The notes under the pieces: model-generated
What the model was told of the DNA's origin: nothing
The model's database searches: none
The model's input: the letters and a program-made list of their open reading frames with translations, nothing else
Part shown: one piece after another, positions 2,324 through 30,272 of the stretch
Layout of the letters: every line of letters begins with the position of its first letter
Position numbering within the stretch: the first letter of the stretch is position 1
Source of the DNA: Synechococcales cyanobacterium bin31.maxbin.ball.101
GTDB taxonomy: Bacteria; Cyanobacteriota; Cyanobacteriia; Leptolyngbyales; Leptolyngbyaceae
Direction: 5' to 3'
Assembly (NCBI GenBank): GCA_013298165.1
Contig: JAAFJU010000042.1
Span: 1 to 33,473, forward strand
DNA: 33,473 bases
Position numbers and translations under genes: made by a program

Positions 2324-3464
2324 CAGGCGTGGCGAGTTGCTCTAGTTGATTCGCCCGCAGTTGACCACAGGCGGCGTTCGCGTCTAACCCCCGCGATCGT
2401 CGCACACTCACCGCTACATTTTTGGCCTTGAGGGTACTCATAAAGACTTGCAGTTGCCGATCGTTCGGGCGCTGATAGTCCACTTCAGAAATCGGGTTAT
2501 AGGGAATGAGATTGACATGGCTCTGAAATCCTTTCAGTAAGTGAGCCAGTTCATGGGCGTGCTGCGTATGATCGTTCATGCCCGCCAACACAATATATTC
2601 AAACGTCACCCGTCGTCCGGTGATGTTGACGTAGTCACGGCATTCGTCTAGCAAGGCTTCTAGAGGGTACTTTGTCGCAGAAGGAATGAGTTGCTCCCGC
2701 ACTTCTTGATTCGAGGCATGGAGACTGACGGCGAGGGTGGATTGAAGATGCCGATCGGCCAAGCGTCGAATTTGTCCGGGAATGCCCACGGTGGAAATGG
2801 TCATCGATCGTTGACCAATGCCAATGTCTTGGTTCATCGATCGCACCGCTTCCGCCACATTTTCTACATTCAACAGCGGTTCGCCCATGCCCATGAACAC
2901 GACGTTGCTGACTCGTTCTTGGAAATCAGCCTGCACCGTGAGAATCTGGTCCACAATTTCGTGGCGCTCTAGATTGCGTTTAAATCCGCCTTTGCCCGTG
3001 GCGCAGAAGTCACAGGCCATGGGGCAACCTACTTGAGATGAGACACAAACCGTGAGCCGATCGAGCTTGTTGCTGCCTGTTTTATAAGCCGGGATGCCGA
3101 CGGCTTCGATGATCTGGCCGTCCACCATTTCGAGCAAAAACTTGACCGTGCCGTCACGGGAGGGCGATCGCAGGGCAATGCGCGATCGGCCAATATTCAC
3201 ATTTGTCACCGTCTCTCGCCAAGCCTTCGGAAAGACCGTCACTTCCGCCAAGGACTGAATGCCCCGTTCATAAATCCACTGGTGCAACTGCTTGCCGCGA
3301 TAGGCAGGCTGTCCCTGCGTCTGAATCCAATCCGTCAATTCTGTAACGCTCGCTCCTACGAGCGGGACTACGATCGTTGCATCGGGTGTCGCATCTGTCG
3401 CATCTGCATCTGTCGCATCTAAATCTGTCGCATCTACAGTGGGAGCGGAGAATTCAGGATTCAT
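2319..3464 (-). CDS. rlmN: Dual-specificity 23S rRNA / tRNA adenine-C2 methyltransferase RlmN
   Basis: Radical-SAM enzyme that methylates C2 of A2503 in 23S rRNA and of A37 in some tRNAs. The CxxxCxxC cluster motif (CPMACDFC) is at residues 147-154 from the chosen start. The GEPLLN motif (MGMGEPLLN) and the C-terminal [14 protein letters not shown] block are present, the latter with the second, methyl-carrying cysteine (C366). I chose ATG at 3464 (MNPEFSAP), giving 381 residues. The frame stays open 13 codons further upstream to 3503, but that extension is not conserved in character. The first ~30 residues contain a low-complexity Asp-Ala-Thr repeat not seen in typical RlmN, encoded by reiterated GTCGCATCT units at about 3389-3437. 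It is transcribed toward the zinc-ribbon gene. Confidence 0.95.
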
Positions 3465-3856
3465 GGAAAAATCCCATTCATTAGGAATGGCGATAAAAAG
3501 CAAGCTTCTATACTAGCCTGTCCCGCGAGGCTCATTTCGGTTCACCCAGTCAGAGGAAGCCGTGAGTTTAGTCTGAGACCTAAAGTAGACCATGATAGTT
3601 AGATTCTCCATCTCTAACGTTCAATTTCTAACGTTCAACGTCTAACGTTAAATGTCTCAAATTGCCATCATCTTTTGAAAGACTGTTTTTTCTTCTGAAC
3701 TCATGCTATTTGTAGTGAAGCGAGTGAGCTAGGTTGAATGAACGCTCTGCCATGTGACCTCCCGAATGTGTTTCTGTAAAGTTGATGATGGCAGTTGTCC
3801 TTGAGTTTTTGGCATTAGAACCCTCAGTAAAGTTCTAGCCCCTTGGCTTCTACATC
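3465..3856. other. Divergent intergenic region between rlmN and the histidine kinase
   Basis: About 390 bp with no gene. It should hold divergent promoters. The notable content is the 14-bp repeat array at 3613-3654, listed separately. Confidence 0.5.
3613..3654. repeat. Three 14-bp tandem repeats with AACGTT palindromes
   Basis: Consensus TCTAACGTTCAAnn repeated at 3613-3626, 3627-3640 and 3641-3654 (the third reads TCTAACGTTAAATG), with a degenerate fourth start (TCTCAAA) after it. Each unit carries the palindrome AACGTT. It lies in the divergent promoter region, about 150 bp upstream of rlmN and 200 bp upstream of the kinase, so it could bind a regulator. Slippage is the simpler explanation. 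Confidence 0.75.
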
Positions 3857-5077
3857 GTGTGCCTTATGTCTTTCAACCTCAGTCCTCAGTCCGTGTTTCC
3901 TGTTTCGTCCCTTCCTTCTGCCATGATTGCGGCGGCTATGGATCTGGTTCCTGAGCCGATCGTCCTCACCACGATTGATGGCGTGATTACCTATTTCAAC
4001 CGAGCGGCCCAAGATTTGTTTCAAGGGGCTGGTAATTTGCAACCCTCTTCTAATTTGCTCGATGTGTTCATGTCGCAATGGATCTCGACTGCGGACTGGA
4101 CTCAGATTTTATATCGAATGCGATCGGGACAGTGTGACTTAGAGGTGCAATTGAATCTGAGTGATTCGCCGAAAATTGTCTCGATCGCTCTGCGGCAGAT
4201 TTCCCAGGAGTCGGTTGGTCGTACGCTGGATAGCAGCCCTGAGCTATGGCTGTGGCGGTTCCAAGATCTCACCCCTCAACAACGGCAGCAGGCGGAATGG
4301 ATCGAGCGGACGGCTGCGCTAGAGCGATCGAGCCGCCATATGTCTGAGTTTTTGTCGAATATGTCCCATGAGTTGCGGACGCCGTTGACCTCGATTTTAG
4401 GGTTTTCGTCGATGTTGAAGCAGCAGATTTTTGGGGAGTTAAATGAGAAACAATCGGTTTACATTCGACAAATTCATCGCAGTGGTCAGTATTTACTGGC
4501 GTTGATTAACGATATTCTTGACCTGTCTAAGATTGAAGCGGGCCAGATGACGTTGGAATGTACGCCGCTCTCGGCGATTCGGCTCTGTGAAGAGGCGATC
4601 GAGTCCGTCCAGCAGCAATCTCAGCTCAAACAGCTCTCCGTGCGGACTCAGTTTGAGCCGTCGATCGCGCAGCTTTGGGCGGATGAGTTGCGGGTGCGAC
4701 AGATGATTTTGAATTTGCTGTCGAATGCGATTAAGTTTTCATCGGAGGGTGGGACGATCGAGGTCCGATCGCAGCAGCAAGGTGAGCAGATCTGGATCGA
4801 GGTTCAGGACTATGGCATTGGCATTGAAGCGGAGAAGCAACATTTAGTGTTCAAGCCGTTCCAGCAAGTGGATAATTCCATCCAACGACGACGGCAGGGA
4901 ACCGGGCTGGGGTTGGCCTTGACGAAACATTTGGCGGAGTTACATGGTGGAACGGTGAGTTTTACTTCGGAAATGGGGATGGGCAGTTGTTTTGTGCTGA
5001 AGTTGCCGATGGTCGAAGACCGACCTGAGGTCATCGAATCAGAGTTTCCAATCAAATCAGAGTATCGTAAAGAGTGA
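3857..5077 (+). CDS. Soluble PAS-domain sensor histidine kinase
   Basis: 406 residues, no transmembrane segment. An N-terminal PAS-like domain (about residues 22-135, LVPEPIVLTTIDGVITYFNRA) precedes a HisKA dimerisation domain with the H-box FLSNMSHELRTPLTSILGF (phospho-accepting His171). The HATPase domain follows with N-box LNLLSNAIKFS, G1 box DYGIGI and G2 box GTGLGLALTKHLAELHGG. It is a complete kinase and presumably phosphorylates a response regulator encoded elsewhere; none is adjacent. The GTG at 3857 starts the listed frame, and ATG at 3866 three codons later is equally possible. It ends 21 bp before lgt, so co-transcription with lgt is possible though functionally unrelated. Confidence 0.9.
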   Translation: MCLMSFNLSPQSVFPVSSLPSAMIAAAMDLVPEPIVLTTIDGVITYFNRAAQDLFQGAGNLQPSSNLLDVFMSQWISTADWTQILYRMRSGQCDLEVQLNLSDSPKIVSIALRQISQESVGRTLDSSPELWLWRFQDLTPQQRQQAEWIERTAALERSSRHMSEFLSNMSHELRTPLTSILGFSSMLKQQIFGELNEKQSVYIRQIHRSGQYLLALINDILDLSKIEAGQMTLECTPLSAIRLCEEAIESVQQQSQLKQLSVRTQFEPSIAQLWADELRVRQMILNLLSNAIKFSSEGGTIEVRSQQQGEQIWIEVQDYGIGIEAEKQHLVFKPFQQVDNSIQRRRQGTGLGLALTKHLAELHGGTVSFTSEMGMGSCFVLKLPMVEDRPEVIESEFPIKSEYRKE

Positions 5078-5098
5078 TTTGGTTAGTGGTTGACATCC

Positions 5099-5929
5099 AT
5101 GGACTTTCTTTTAGCTGCCTTTGAATTTACGTCACCGGGTCCGATCGCTCTGGAGTTGGGACCGCTGCGAATGTATTGGTATGGCATTTTTATTGCATCG
5201 GCGGTGTTGATCGGGGTGCAGTTGTCCATGGCGTTGGCTCCTAGGCGGAACATTGACCCGGAACTCATGGGAGATTTGGCCTTTGCGTTGGTGTTGGGGG
5301 CATTGCCCGGTGCGCGGCTCTATTATGTGCTGTTCCAATGGCGGGATTATGTGGGTCATCTGGAGAAGATGATTGCCATTTGGGAGGGGGGCATTGCGAT
5401 TCATGGGGCGATTTTGGGTGGGATGTTGGCGGCTTGGGGGTTTGCGAGGTGGAAAAAAACCTCGTTTTGGCAATTAGCCGATCTCGTTGCGCCGTCGTTG
5501 ATTTTGGGGCAGGCGATCGGTCGGTGGGGAAATTTTTTCAATTCGGAAGCCTATGGATCGCCCACGGAGTTGCCTTGGAAGTTATTGATTCCGGTGTCCA
5601 GACGAATGCCAGGGTTTGAATCGATCGCTTACTATCACCCAACCTTTCTGTATGAATCGCTGTGGAATTTGGGGGTGTTTGGGATTTTGATGACGCTGTT
5701 CTTTAAAGTGGGGCATCGGTTGAAACCGGGGATGCTCTTCTGCGTCTATGCGATCGCCTATAGCGGGGGACGGCTTTGGATTGAGGGGCTGCGGACGGAT
5801 AGCTTGATGGCGGGTCCGTTGAAGATGGCGCAGTTGGTGAGTTTGACGGCGATCGCCCTAGGCTTTGTGGGTTTGTGGTGGTTCTCAAAAATGGAAAACC
5901 CCCAAAGGGCGAACCTTCGGGGGAAGTAA
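5099..5929 (+). CDS. lgt: Phosphatidylglycerol-prolipoprotein diacylglyceryl transferase
   Basis: Inner-membrane enzyme that moves diacylglycerol from phosphatidylglycerol onto the lipobox cysteine of prolipoproteins, the first step of lipoprotein maturation. The sequence has about seven hydrophobic segments and the Lgt signature [13 protein letters not shown] (residues 141-153) together with HGAILGG (102-108). Length 276 is usual. I prefer ATG at 5099 ([10 protein letters not shown]) over the TTG at 5090. The last codons contain an imperfect inverted repeat CCCCCAAAGG / CCTTCGGGGG (5899-5923), so a repeat-derived tail ([10 protein letters not shown]) may have been appended to the C-terminus. 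Confidence 0.95.
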
Positions 5930-27509: not shown

Positions 27510-28655
27510 TCAACTTCCGTATTGGTCGGGTAGGCGGCGCTTGAGTTCGGCGATCGGGAGCAAGAGATTATCTTCGATTTCTTGACGGACTTCTGGGGAA
27601 ACAGCATTTTTAATATTTAATAATTCGACTAAGAATTTGTTAGTATCATAATAGACTTGTAGCCTACACATCTGCTCACTAATCAGTTGCCAGTCATGTC
27701 CAATATTGCGATGTGTGATCATGCTCTGTCGTAGTTCTGTTTTCCAGACTTGACCATCGCTTTTCAGCCATATTGCAAAATCATGTATCTCAGAGGTGTT
27801 CGGTAAACGGTCTTTAAGCTGTTGTAGATGATTTACAAACTCAGGGTCGTTAGCAAGATGGAGTGCTCGGGTGAGAAAATCACGGGTGAGAACAAGATTA
27901 TAGGTGAGATTGCGAGCGAGTATGAGGTTATTGTCGAGAGAGAGATCGAGTTCAAGGCTTAGGTTTAACTTAAAACTAAGACCGAGAGAGTGGGCGAGGA
28001 GAGAGTGGGCACCATATAACGCTTGAATTAAAGATGGCTGATATGGTGGGATGATCAATTGAGCTTTTTCTAGCCCCCAGCAAAGAACTTCTTGCAATTT
28101 TTTATCGTGTTCGATTGAATAATCAATCGCCTGTTTGATCAGCCGTAGTAACCGATCAGATTGGCCTTGAGCCTTAATAAGCTGTTGTACTATTCCTTGC
28201 CATTGTGGATCACTAATTTTCCGGATTAGTTCTTCTGAAGGTAAGCTGATTAGCCATTTGGTTGTGAAATATTCCTGAAACGTCAAATGGGAAAATGACC
28301 ATAATTCATCTGCCCGTTCTACTAGCAATCCATGCTGGGACTCGATCGCTTTCAATATTGCAAGTGCACTGTTTCGATTTAGAAGATTGAGATGTTGAGA
28401 AATTTTCTTAATCAAATCATCTTGATCGAATAAAATAAAATTTTTAGGATACTCAAATTTTTGAGCAGCAATCTTGATAAGTAAATTCTCTTTTTGCTCA
28501 ATATTTAAATTCCGATAAAATTCTGTTCCAATTTCCCAGCCACTAATAGCCTTGTCATCATTCCATTTTCGTAGTAATAGTCTTATTGCACGTTCATAAA
28601 GCAAAGCTGATCGGATCGGAATTTCTCCTTCGTCTTGTAATATTAAACACATCAA
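27510..28655 (-). CDS. NACHT NTPase, C-terminal part (separated by frameshift)
   Basis: About 381 codons continuing the NACHT protein after the frameshift near 28668. It opens with LMCLILQDEGEIPIRSALLYERAI, the expected continuation of the NACHT helical subdomain. The winged-helix motif ELWSFSHLTFQEYF (118-130) follows. A run of leucine-rich short repeats (about 222-256, LGLSFKLNLSLELDLSLDNNL) and the C-terminal NCH2-like region YYDTNKFLVELLNIKNAVSPEVRQEIEDNLLLPIAEL come next. Those features identify it as the sensor and C-terminal half of a cyanobacterial NACHT protein, not an independent gene. The listed start (a TTG/ATG pair) is only where this frame first has a start codon. Confidence 0.8.
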   Translation of the reverse strand: MMCLILQDEGEIPIRSALLYERAIRLLLRKWNDDKAISGWEIGTEFYRNLNIEQKENLLIKIAAQKFEYPKNFILFDQDDLIKKISQHLNLLNRNSALAILKAIESQHGLLVERADELWSFSHLTFQEYFTTKWLISLPSEELIRKISDPQWQGIVQQLIKAQGQSDRLLRLIKQAIDYSIEHDKKLQEVLCWGLEKAQLIIPPYQPSLIQALYGAHSLLAHSLGLSFKLNLSLELDLSLDNNLILARNLTYNLVLTRDFLTRALHLANDPEFVNHLQQLKDRLPNTSEIHDFAIWLKSDGQVWKTELRQSMITHRNIGHDWQLISEQMCRLQVYYDTNKFLVELLNIKNAVSPEVRQEIEDNLLLPIAELKRRLPDQYGS

Positions 28656-29892
28656 CCCTAATAAAACTTGGTGTCACAGTCAGTTCTTTTAAAGCTTGAT
28701 TTTGGTCAATTGCTAATTCAATATTCTGCCACCGTGAACTTATTTCAAGATCATATTGGCCATTTGCCCGAAACCAGTTAAATACGAATCTTTGAACTTG
28801 ATCAATATTAAAGTCCGCTACTTCGACGGATACAAAACCATCAGGAATTCCTTGCATGATTTGAGTTCGACAGGTCATGATATAATGGTTTTTAGAATAT
28901 TTTTTTGTGGCTTGGAAGAGTTGATCTTGAACTTGCGTTCGCAACATCTGAGTAGGTACTTCATCAAATCCGTCCATAAGAATTAAGAGTTTTCCATCTT
29001 TCAATAATTCATTGATATGCCTCTTATCCTGAACATCTAAATTGTCTCCAATTGCATCTAAAAATGACCATTTCTCATCACGGATTTGTCGAAATTCAAT
29101 AAATATAGCAATTAGGTTCGATCGAAACTTGCCACTATACCAATCAACAGCTAAATGTTTCAGAAATGTAGTTTTTCCTGCCCCTGGCTTTCCCAGGATT
29201 AGCAGTTTAGATTCTCTATTAGCAATCTCAAAACCAGGATTTCGTTGAATCCGATCGCCCAACCCTAGCCGATCGTTTCTCAAATCAAATGTCTCCAACA
29301 TCTTGTCTACTGAACGCTGGAATGTTCGCGGCGATCGATTCAATAACCACACATCTACATAAAGCTGATCGACTCCGATTTCCTGACCACTTAGCAACCG
29401 AATCTTACTGTAGTTCTGAAGAATCTTTTCTCGACAGTGTTGCCGAATCTGTTGCTCATCTACTGTTGAAGAAGCAGAAGGTCTGATAGTCGGGACCTCT
29501 TGTTCCGAACCTTGGTAGATATTGACTGTCTGCCCCACGATCGTCGTTTCAGAACCCTTAACCTGAACCCCTTGATCTTCATTGGTATTCTGCTGCAAGT
29601 CCTCCGCTGTCGTTAATCCAGATTTTTCTAATGGTTTGGCTTCCCCAGAATTGGGGGCTGAGAGTCTTCCGAGTTCTGCAACTTGTTCCCAATCTAACCC
29701 CAACGCCCGACAGCATAGAACGAAATTTTGTCGATCGACTCCTTTCTTCCCTGCCCGAAACGTCGTTGCCGTAGCCCGTCCCACGCCAATCCTAGCGGCC
29801 AGATCTTCCGTAGACCAAGCCTTATCCGTCAGCGCACGTTCAACTTGGCGCTTGCCATCTGATGAAAGTTTGAGCGATCGAGGAGTAGCCAT
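28594..29892 (-). CDS. NACHT (STAND) NTPase with N-terminal HTH, N-terminal part (frameshifted)
   Basis: 432 codons. Residues about 10-75 are an HTH domain common at the N-terminus of cyanobacterial NACHT proteins (TEDLAARIGVGRATATTFRAGKKGVDRQNFVLCCRALGLDWEQVA). A linker with ETTIVGQTVNIYQGSE follows. The NACHT domain has Walker A LILGKPGAGKTTFLKHLA (231-248) and Walker B KLLILMDGFDEVP (301-313). After KELTVTP the frame is lost: the remaining residues (SFIRVDVFNITRRRR...) are out-of-frame junk. Removing one base at 28668 restores TPVLLGLMCLILQDEG. Bacterial NACHT proteins of this kind include antiphage effectors. Four phased 11-bp repeats and a TACAAT box precede the ATG. Confidence 0.88.
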   Translation of the reverse strand: MATPRSLKLSSDGKRQVERALTDKAWSTEDLAARIGVGRATATTFRAGKKGVDRQNFVLCCRALGLDWEQVAELGRLSAPNSGEAKPLEKSGLTTAEDLQQNTNEDQGVQVKGSETTIVGQTVNIYQGSEQEVPTIRPSASSTVDEQQIRQHCREKILQNYSKIRLLSGQEIGVDQLYVDVWLLNRSPRTFQRSVDKMLETFDLRNDRLGLGDRIQRNPGFEIANRESKLLILGKPGAGKTTFLKHLAVDWYSGKFRSNLIAIFIEFRQIRDEKWSFLDAIGDNLDVQDKRHINELLKDGKLLILMDGFDEVPTQMLRTQVQDQLFQATKKYSKNHYIMTCRTQIMQGIPDGFVSVEVADFNIDQVQRFVFNWFRANGQYDLEISSRWQNIELAIDQNQALKELTVTPSFIRVDVFNITRRRRNSDPISFAL

Positions 29893-29919
29893 TCGTCAGG
29901 GGATAATCAGGTTCTCCTT

Positions 29920-29971
29920 ATTGTATTCACCTCATCCCCAACTCATCCCGAAAATATCCCAAACTTATCCC
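29920..29971 (-). promoter_or_regulatory. Four phased 11-bp repeats plus -10 box upstream of the NACHT gene
   Basis: On the minus strand, units GGGATAAGTTT, GGGATATTTTC, GGGATGAGTTG and GGGATGAGGTG follow one another without gaps (29971 to 29928). TACAAT (29925-29920) comes 2 bp later. The ATG is only 20-28 bp beyond. The 11-bp period matches one DNA turn, so a protein could bind all units on one face. The repeats cover the -35 region, which suggests control by a repressor or class II activator, perhaps the NACHT protein's own HTH. Confidence 0.72.
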
Positions 29972-30083
29972 AATCTTCCAAAAACACCACTCAATGGGCC
30001 TTACAAAGTCATCCCGATCGGGCGCTGATCTTATTGGTCAATTTCGCGAGGATAGGCTCATACCGAATCAAGGAGCCAAATTC

Positions 30084-30272
30084 ATGAAATCCAAAAACAC
30101 TCTTCTCGCCCTCGCCACAACCCTTACGATCGCCTCCGCCTCCACCAGCTACCACCTCAGTAGCCTTCCGACTCCCACGGAAGCCCAGAAGAATCTGATT
30201 ACGGTGATGAACACCGCAATCGGTGCTGGACTCACGGCGATCTTCGGCTTACTCAATGATGAGGACCATTAA
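30084..30272 (+). CDS. Small membrane protein, unknown function
   Basis: 62 residues from ATG 30084 with ribosome site AAGGAG. A hydrophobic N-terminal stretch (about 6-20, signal or anchor) is followed by TPTEAQKNLITVMNTAIGAGLTAIFGLLND, a second amphipathic or hydrophobic helix near the C-terminus. Similar small proteins are common in cyanobacteria but uncharacterised. It is divergent from the NACHT gene (191 bp between starts), sharing its upstream region, so a linked role such as an accessory membrane partner is possible but unproven. Confidence 0.6.
   Translation: MKSKNTLLALATTLTIASASTSYHLSSLPTPTEAQKNLITVMNTAIGAGLTAIFGLLNDEDH

Follow-up and report, generated by a model that had tools for sequence, protein, structure and literature searches.

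A head-to-tail array of four 11-bp units lies just upstream of an HTH-NACHT gene in the window (the whole 33,473-nucleotide stretch of cyanobacterial DNA that we analysed), and we read it as a putative operator for the XRE-type HTH encoded by that same gene, which would occupy the place of a -35 element and autoregulate the gene (probability roughly 0.55). Comparison with related loci supports, at the level of sequence, the view that such arrays are real, that they recur with this HTH family and that they vary with its recognition helix; we infer direct binding, a cooperative assembly on one face of the DNA, the sign of the regulation and a link to NACHT activation.

Read along the minus strand, the array consists of four exact 11-bp GGGAT units (29971-29928), of which GGGATAAGTTT (29961-29971), GGGATATTTTC (29950-29960) and GGGATGAGGTG (29928-29938) were located by sequence and pattern match, and GGGATGAGTTG (29939-29949) fits the family unit KGKATGASTTK fully. 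They are followed by AA and by the candidate -10 box TACAAT (29920-29925, minus strand), so that 11-bp direct repeats stand beside a -10/-35 region in the SARP-type layout, the -10 box being a sequence match and not a mapped promoter. The description of the array in an earlier note, as four gapless 11-bp units with a GGGAT core, was confirmed by the sequence itself, by Tandem Repeats Finder (29931-29973, period 11, 3.9 copies) and by shuffling: the four-unit GGGAT pattern (0 mismatches) occurred at a single place in the window, even with 3 mismatches allowed, and gave 0 matches in 100 dinucleotide shuffles of the window, again with 3 mismatches allowed. Across the 5.39 Mb draft genome the three-unit pattern with 0 mismatches was unique to the array, where it produced two overlapping matches. 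The array had also been placed directly against TACAAT, about 28 bp before the NACHT start; the two are adjacent but separated by 2 bp, and the distance proved accurate, with 27 bp between TACAAT and the HTH-NACHT ATG (29892). That all units share one DNA face is approximately right, an 11-bp unit drifting by about 17 degrees from 10.5 bp per turn. A possible fifth unit, GGGATGACTTT (30005-30015, minus strand), matches the family unit KGKATGASTTK in full and lies exactly 44 bp upstream of the array, in phase, the positions between being degenerate; a single in-phase copy of this kind could be chance. A consensus scan of 29780-30120 found no two-hexamer sigma-70 promoter.

The first part of the HTH-NACHT gene is a 432-aa open frame (P0001, 28594-29892, minus strand) carrying an XRE-like HTH at about residues 20-74 and a NACHT domain (PF05729) at residues 230-376, whose 72 bits, against a Pfam gathering score of 26.7, establish its membership. 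The rest of the gene lies in another frame (27510-28655, minus strand), recognised through Pfam and comparison with the related locus L013, and holds a C-terminal NCH2 domain (99.2 bits versus a cut-off of 27). Comparison with L013, against which each half shows good conservation, places a change of frame near 28667-28669, so that the present assembly contains no intact single NACHT reading frame; a sequencing error, decay or a programmed shift may be the cause. The HTH of the window protein stayed below the Pfam gathering scores (HTH_26, 20.9 bits versus 22; HTH_31, 19 versus 27), and an array-bearing relative, L319, passes the Pfam HTH cut-off (HTH_3, 23.8 versus 23). A profile (A1) built from 25 related HTHs matched C.BclI (5.1e-5) and HipB (1.6e-4), and a single-sequence structure model of the HTH (pLDDT 76.7) had five helices and retrieved, among the Foldseek matches listed, mostly XRE-type proteins by name, none of them at E<=0.001. 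The restriction-modification controller C.BclI was among the closest solved structures, first by profile and fifth by Foldseek; the profile matches, the model and the Foldseek names together point to a five-helix XRE-like fold. The putative "immune" label of the gene rests on its domain content: the best padloc match, PDC-S60, spans only residues 222-349, and the NCBIfam antiphage models scored far below their cut-offs. A peptide-pattern search for P0001 in named genomes matched 13 stretches, 0 of which encode a relative. The N-terminus of L012, which is closely related to the window's NACHT, looks TIR-like by eye and stands in place of the HTH; significant 11- or 22-bp repetition is absent there.

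The evidence that ties such arrays to the HTH comes in the first place from the repetition spectrum of upstream regions. We gathered 208 of these (200 from HTH genes and 8 from NACHT genes without this HTH), 185 of them non-redundant (178 + 7), leaving out redundant upstream regions and the cut locus L052, and compared the best 24-base self-match at each lag from 5 to 30 with 400 dinucleotide shuffles (significance at p<=0.01); presence of the HTH was judged by eye for 30 loci and by profile at 1e-3 in a second draw. Among the 178 HTH upstreams, lag 11 was significant in 15, lag 22 in 13, lag 9 in 8, lag 18 in 5 and the remaining lags in just 0-4. When the HTH genes were divided by helix type, those outside the LKTRQ type reached significance at lag 11 in 11/63 and at lag 22 in 12/63 (10/62 and 11/62 with the window excluded), and those of the LKTRQ type in 4/115 and 1/115, the former count showing no difference from controls (p=0.2). 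Upstreams of other genes gave 1/77 at lag 11 and 0/77 at lag 22, stretches further upstream 2/166 and 1/166, and the 33 non-redundant NACHT genes without this HTH none at either lag. With the window excluded, the non-LKTRQ regions therefore exceeded the pooled controls both at lag 11 (10/62 versus 3/276, Fisher p=4.1e-6) and at lag 22 (11/62 versus 1/276, Fisher p=3.7e-8). The second draw, of 40 NACHT genes and with the redundant region of L272 left out, yielded 13 with this HTH, those without it being joined to the earlier ones to make up the 33; lag 11 was significant in 2 of the 13 and lag 22 in 3, and the lag-11 excess taken on its own fell short of significance (2/13, p=0.075).

The controls used here omit the loci selected by pattern (L001-L008 and L069-L096), L009, and any region that an HTH gene shares; a first control set, with lag 11 in 9/125 other-gene upstreams, was discarded because it still contained loci that had been chosen through an 11-bp pattern. 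Within this HTH family, arrays characterise one section and are by no means general: the majority of HTH genes have no significant array. Arrays of 9 bp are not put forward as a class, since lags 9 and 18 were also raised in the far control stretches (6/166 each); two LKTRQ-type HTH genes (L060 and L061) have three to four upstream 9-bp units TTGTTTGAT/A that are individually striking.

The shared unit of the arrays is approximately KGKATGASTTK (52 hand-picked units), of which the window's GGGAT is, to judge from its sequence, one version. GGGAT itself did not hold up as a conserved motif: exact triple GGGAT occurred in 15/386 genomes, the HTH of this family was absent from all 28 loci examined (L069-L096) among the matches outside the window's own genome, and 36/46 of the matches listed were repeats of genus g46. 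The search for 11-bp GGGAT arrays upstream of homologues that the earlier note had proposed recovered the 11-bp arrays and not the word, so that its refuting condition, a lack of such repeats before homologues, does not hold in the broad sense. Its suggestion that the NACHT protein's own HTH is the binder, making an autoregulated sensor, gains from the recurrence of arrays with this HTH and loses the conserved GGGAT. Numerous 11-bp repeats of type GGGGGGATYAAG are scattered through 7 genomes of genus g46 (L072-L078 and others), and in a 1.7-Mb genome (L080) both strands of a single AT-rich stretch bear GGGATAA-type units, several in all and three of them spaced at 11 bp.

In the 63 non-LKTRQ upstreams, TGANTT occurred 65 times on the gene strand versus 23 on the opposite one, with pair distances of 11 (11 times), 22 (8 times) and 33 (3 times); the corresponding strand counts were 24 versus 19 and 48 versus 40 in the cleaned controls and 27 versus 16 before NACHT genes without the HTH. 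The word itself changed with the recognition helix. Upstream of the five HTHs with an S(R/P)TT helix (L011, L013, L014, L054 and L257), TGTYC was found 18 times on the gene strand versus once on the other, with no gene-strand TGASTT (n=5), and for the SRQP-type and SRST-type groups the counts were 37 versus 2 for TGASTT and 7 versus 3 for TGTYC (word against helix, Fisher 2.6e-10, a descriptive value given that the groups are post hoc, redundancy was kept and sites within a region are non-independent). Units in L011 and L013 are spaced 10 or 11 bp apart, near the helical repeat. In the 132 regions of the LKTRQ group, TGASTT (33 versus 8) and TTTGAWT (58 versus 12) were also rich on the gene strand, so that TGASTT is not specific to a single helix type. 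The recognition helix of the window protein belongs to none of the helix groups compared. The window's best HTH matches form the TSQGL/TSRGL group, in which 0/9 loci examined had a TGASTT pair at 11/22 bp within 600 bp; L354, of this group, has a TGASTT pair 280 bp upstream.

Scans that started from the pattern led back to the same HTH. Three TGANTT at 11 bp were found in 69/291 genomes, many rows being plain tandem duplications or lying beside other genes (126 rows taken up, some overlapping rows omitted). Three TGASTT gave 36 rows, 17 of them with unequal spacers, of which 15 were read (two G488:C81 rows were left out): in 11/15 the gene that follows encodes this HTH (L297, L319 and L321-L329, including several close relatives, L322-L327), more than 300 bp away in L328 and L297; 3/15 adjoined neither an HTH gene nor a NACHT gene, and the exception, L320, precedes a NACHT gene (55 bits) in which the HTH was not found. 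Among 17 further pattern loci that were read, the HTH appeared only in L296, the gene of L241. In named genomes, two consensus units occurred at 22 places, with a gene for such an HTH within 600 bp downstream in 5/7 cyanobacterial and 0/15 other places. The five are from Phormidium sp. FACHB-1136 (whose array is identical with that of L323), Microcoleus vaginatus, Coleofasciculus sp. LEGE 07092, Phormidium sp. LEGE 05292 and Nostoc sp. CMAA1605, and their Pfam partners are NACHT in three (L341, L344 and L354), TPR in one (L343) and, in Phormidium sp. LEGE 05292 (L348, gene 2655-5351), MalT-like TPRs with sub-threshold ATPase matches. In L319 the HTH behind the TGASTT array is fused to AAA_35 (309 bits). 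Since some array-bearing HTH genes carry AAA_35 or TPR in place of NACHT, and since the word varies with the HTH type, the array goes with the HTH.

The layout of the promoter was compared across array loci, defined by at least 2 TGASTT, at least 3 TGTYC, or by hand. A TAnAAT is found after the array in 19 non-redundant loci and is missing in 13 others (redundant loci among the 13 being kept). In 16 regions, TGASTT lay upstream of the -10 box 35 times and downstream once, a ratio that is partly geometry, the scan having covered more sequence upstream than downstream, and to which loci chosen by pattern contribute. At the -35 position the 19 loci matched the consensus no better than shuffled sequence (mean 2.84/6 versus 2.89), with at least 4/6 in 1/19 loci versus 20.6% of shuffles, and TGASTT started 18-22 bp before the -10 in 7/19. 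A fixed register between array and -10 was at best weakly supported and not adopted, the positions being weakly clustered (R 0.41-0.51, p 0.04-0.10). By analogy, this layout, with the array in the -35 place, resembles class-II activator promoters, and would be compatible with repression too.

In the mechanism that we propose, one HTH would sit on each 11-bp unit in a head-to-tail row, which would align several protomers on roughly one DNA face and fill the -35 position just upstream of the TAnAAT -10 box. The protein would thereby govern the gene that encodes it, its likeliest role being that of a class-II type activator or of a dual autoregulator that activates and then limits, and the divergent gene for a small hydrophobic protein may also be affected. 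The occurrence of arrays with the HTH in genes that have no NACHT and not (0/33) with NACHT genes that lack this HTH, L320 of the pattern scan excepted, and the variation of the word with the helix are what this operator reading predicts; we also counted in its favour the lag statistics, the pattern-first scans, the variety of partner domains, the layout and the XRE matches. Against it we counted the missing arrays at most HTH genes, the LKTRQ group at control level, the 0/9 of the TSQGL/TSRGL group, the wide spread of triple TGANTT, the weak register and the 13 array loci without TAnAAT, together with the dimeric binding to palindromes that is usual among structurally characterised XRE relatives.

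The same promoter might instead be repressed, with resting HTH-NACHT protein coating the array, keeping RNA polymerase off the promoter of its gene, perhaps off the divergent one too, and leaving the DNA upon activation, in the manner of HipB/HigA-type antitoxins. The HTH resembles, by profile and by model, HipB, HigA and controller proteins, which regulate their own expression within toxin or restriction systems, and the position of the array against the -10 box and the intergenic region that many loci share with a small hydrophobic gene also fit repression. Nevertheless, a promoter that fires freely when the repressor leaves should have a usable -35 and none above chance was seen, the sites lie nearly all upstream of the -10 (a count with a geometric bias) and they are direct repeats rather than palindromes, so that we regard autorepression as rather unlikely. 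Another host regulator, for instance a response regulator of the OmpR/PhoB type, is an improbable occupant of the array. Such winged-helix regulators typically use direct repeats of about 11 bp near -35, a format that the array shares. SARP regulators likewise have 11-bp direct repeats near -35, according to the passages on them in PMC5930380; however, the single exact triple GGGAT in the genome is unlike a regulon, and arrays track one HTH family, their word varying with its recognition helix. That the array is functionless, a product of chance or of neutral tandem duplication, is very improbable even though plain 11-bp tandem duplications are common in these genomes (e.g. genus g46), given that the spacers vary while the core stays, that 100 shuffles gave no match and that arrays recur at the equivalent place before other HTH genes.

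An operator bound by the gene's own HTH would have parallels among known regulators. SARP/AfsR of Streptomyces joins a SARP domain to an ATPase and TPRs, its DNA-binding domain being of the SARP type as opposed to the XRE-type HTH found here in cyanobacteria, and of the 26 Pfam families that P0001 matched at E<=1, the 25 listed included no SARP domain; activation is established for SARP/AfsR, whereas for the cyanobacterial array it would be our deduction. MalT binds DNA through a C-terminal LuxR-type domain, and no C-terminal LuxR-type HTH was present in P0001 or P0002 among the Pfam matches listed. Unit 4 with the preceding G, GGGGATGAGG, resembles what we take to be the MalT-box consensus; this likeness, seen in one unit only, is probably chance. 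According to passages of PMC4381067, MalT is a STAND ATPase that forms multimers, and these bind cooperatively to MalT boxes and bring in RNA polymerase. By analogy, SARP/AfsR and MalT are functional parallels and not family members. Controller (C) proteins are stand-alone small dimers on palindromic boxes, and we know of no 11-bp arrays for those of restriction-modification systems. C.BclI and C.AhdI, which the excerpts consulted present as autoregulators of defence systems, are, unlike the window protein, not fused to NACHT.

Bacterial NACHT conflict systems are STAND NTPases that occur, like the window gene, in cyanobacteria (passages of PMC7159879 and PMC8195603), and the main text of PMC7159879 contains neither the word operator nor any form of autoregulat-. 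The earlier note's statement that no description was known agrees with the open-access literature examined, in which we found none of such arrays, most subscription papers being outside its scope; among the matches listed there for the unit word, the topics look unrelated from the title or the start of the abstract. The array offers a candidate, testable DNA target for a large cyanobacterial HTH-STAND family for which we found no described HTH site, and, as the word varies with the HTH type, operators might be assigned across genomes. A more far-reaching picture, which we put forward as speculation and consider doubtful, is that of an NLR-like STAND family combining sensor and transcription factor in one piece: a NACHT oligomer that senses an invader would align its XRE heads on the phased array and switch on its own gene and that of a divergent small membrane protein, the DNA scaffold counting active protomers.

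The divergent gene of the window encodes a small hydrophobic protein of 62 aa (P0003, 30084-30272, plus strand; 92 aa if the start is at 29994) with no Pfam match. Divergent small ORFs with a hydrophobic stretch were found at 20/85 non-LKTRQ HTH loci (10/30 with arrays and 10/55 without), versus 6/115 LKTRQ loci (p=0.0002) and 0/31 NACHT loci without the HTH (p=0.0016), counts that are sensitive to the threshold, with look-alikes just below it in L011, L013, L014, L322 and L325. Some stand at loci where no array was detected, so the link between array and small gene is not a strict one. By eye these ORFs are of several sequence types; the one in L029 is PF20712, CyanoTRADDas_TM, which we take to be linked to described bacterial conflict systems. 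CyanoTRADDas is unmentioned in the passages of PMC8195603. Genes of this kind are candidate partners or effectors, and L348 has a divergent small hydrophobic ORF beside its array-bearing HTH gene.
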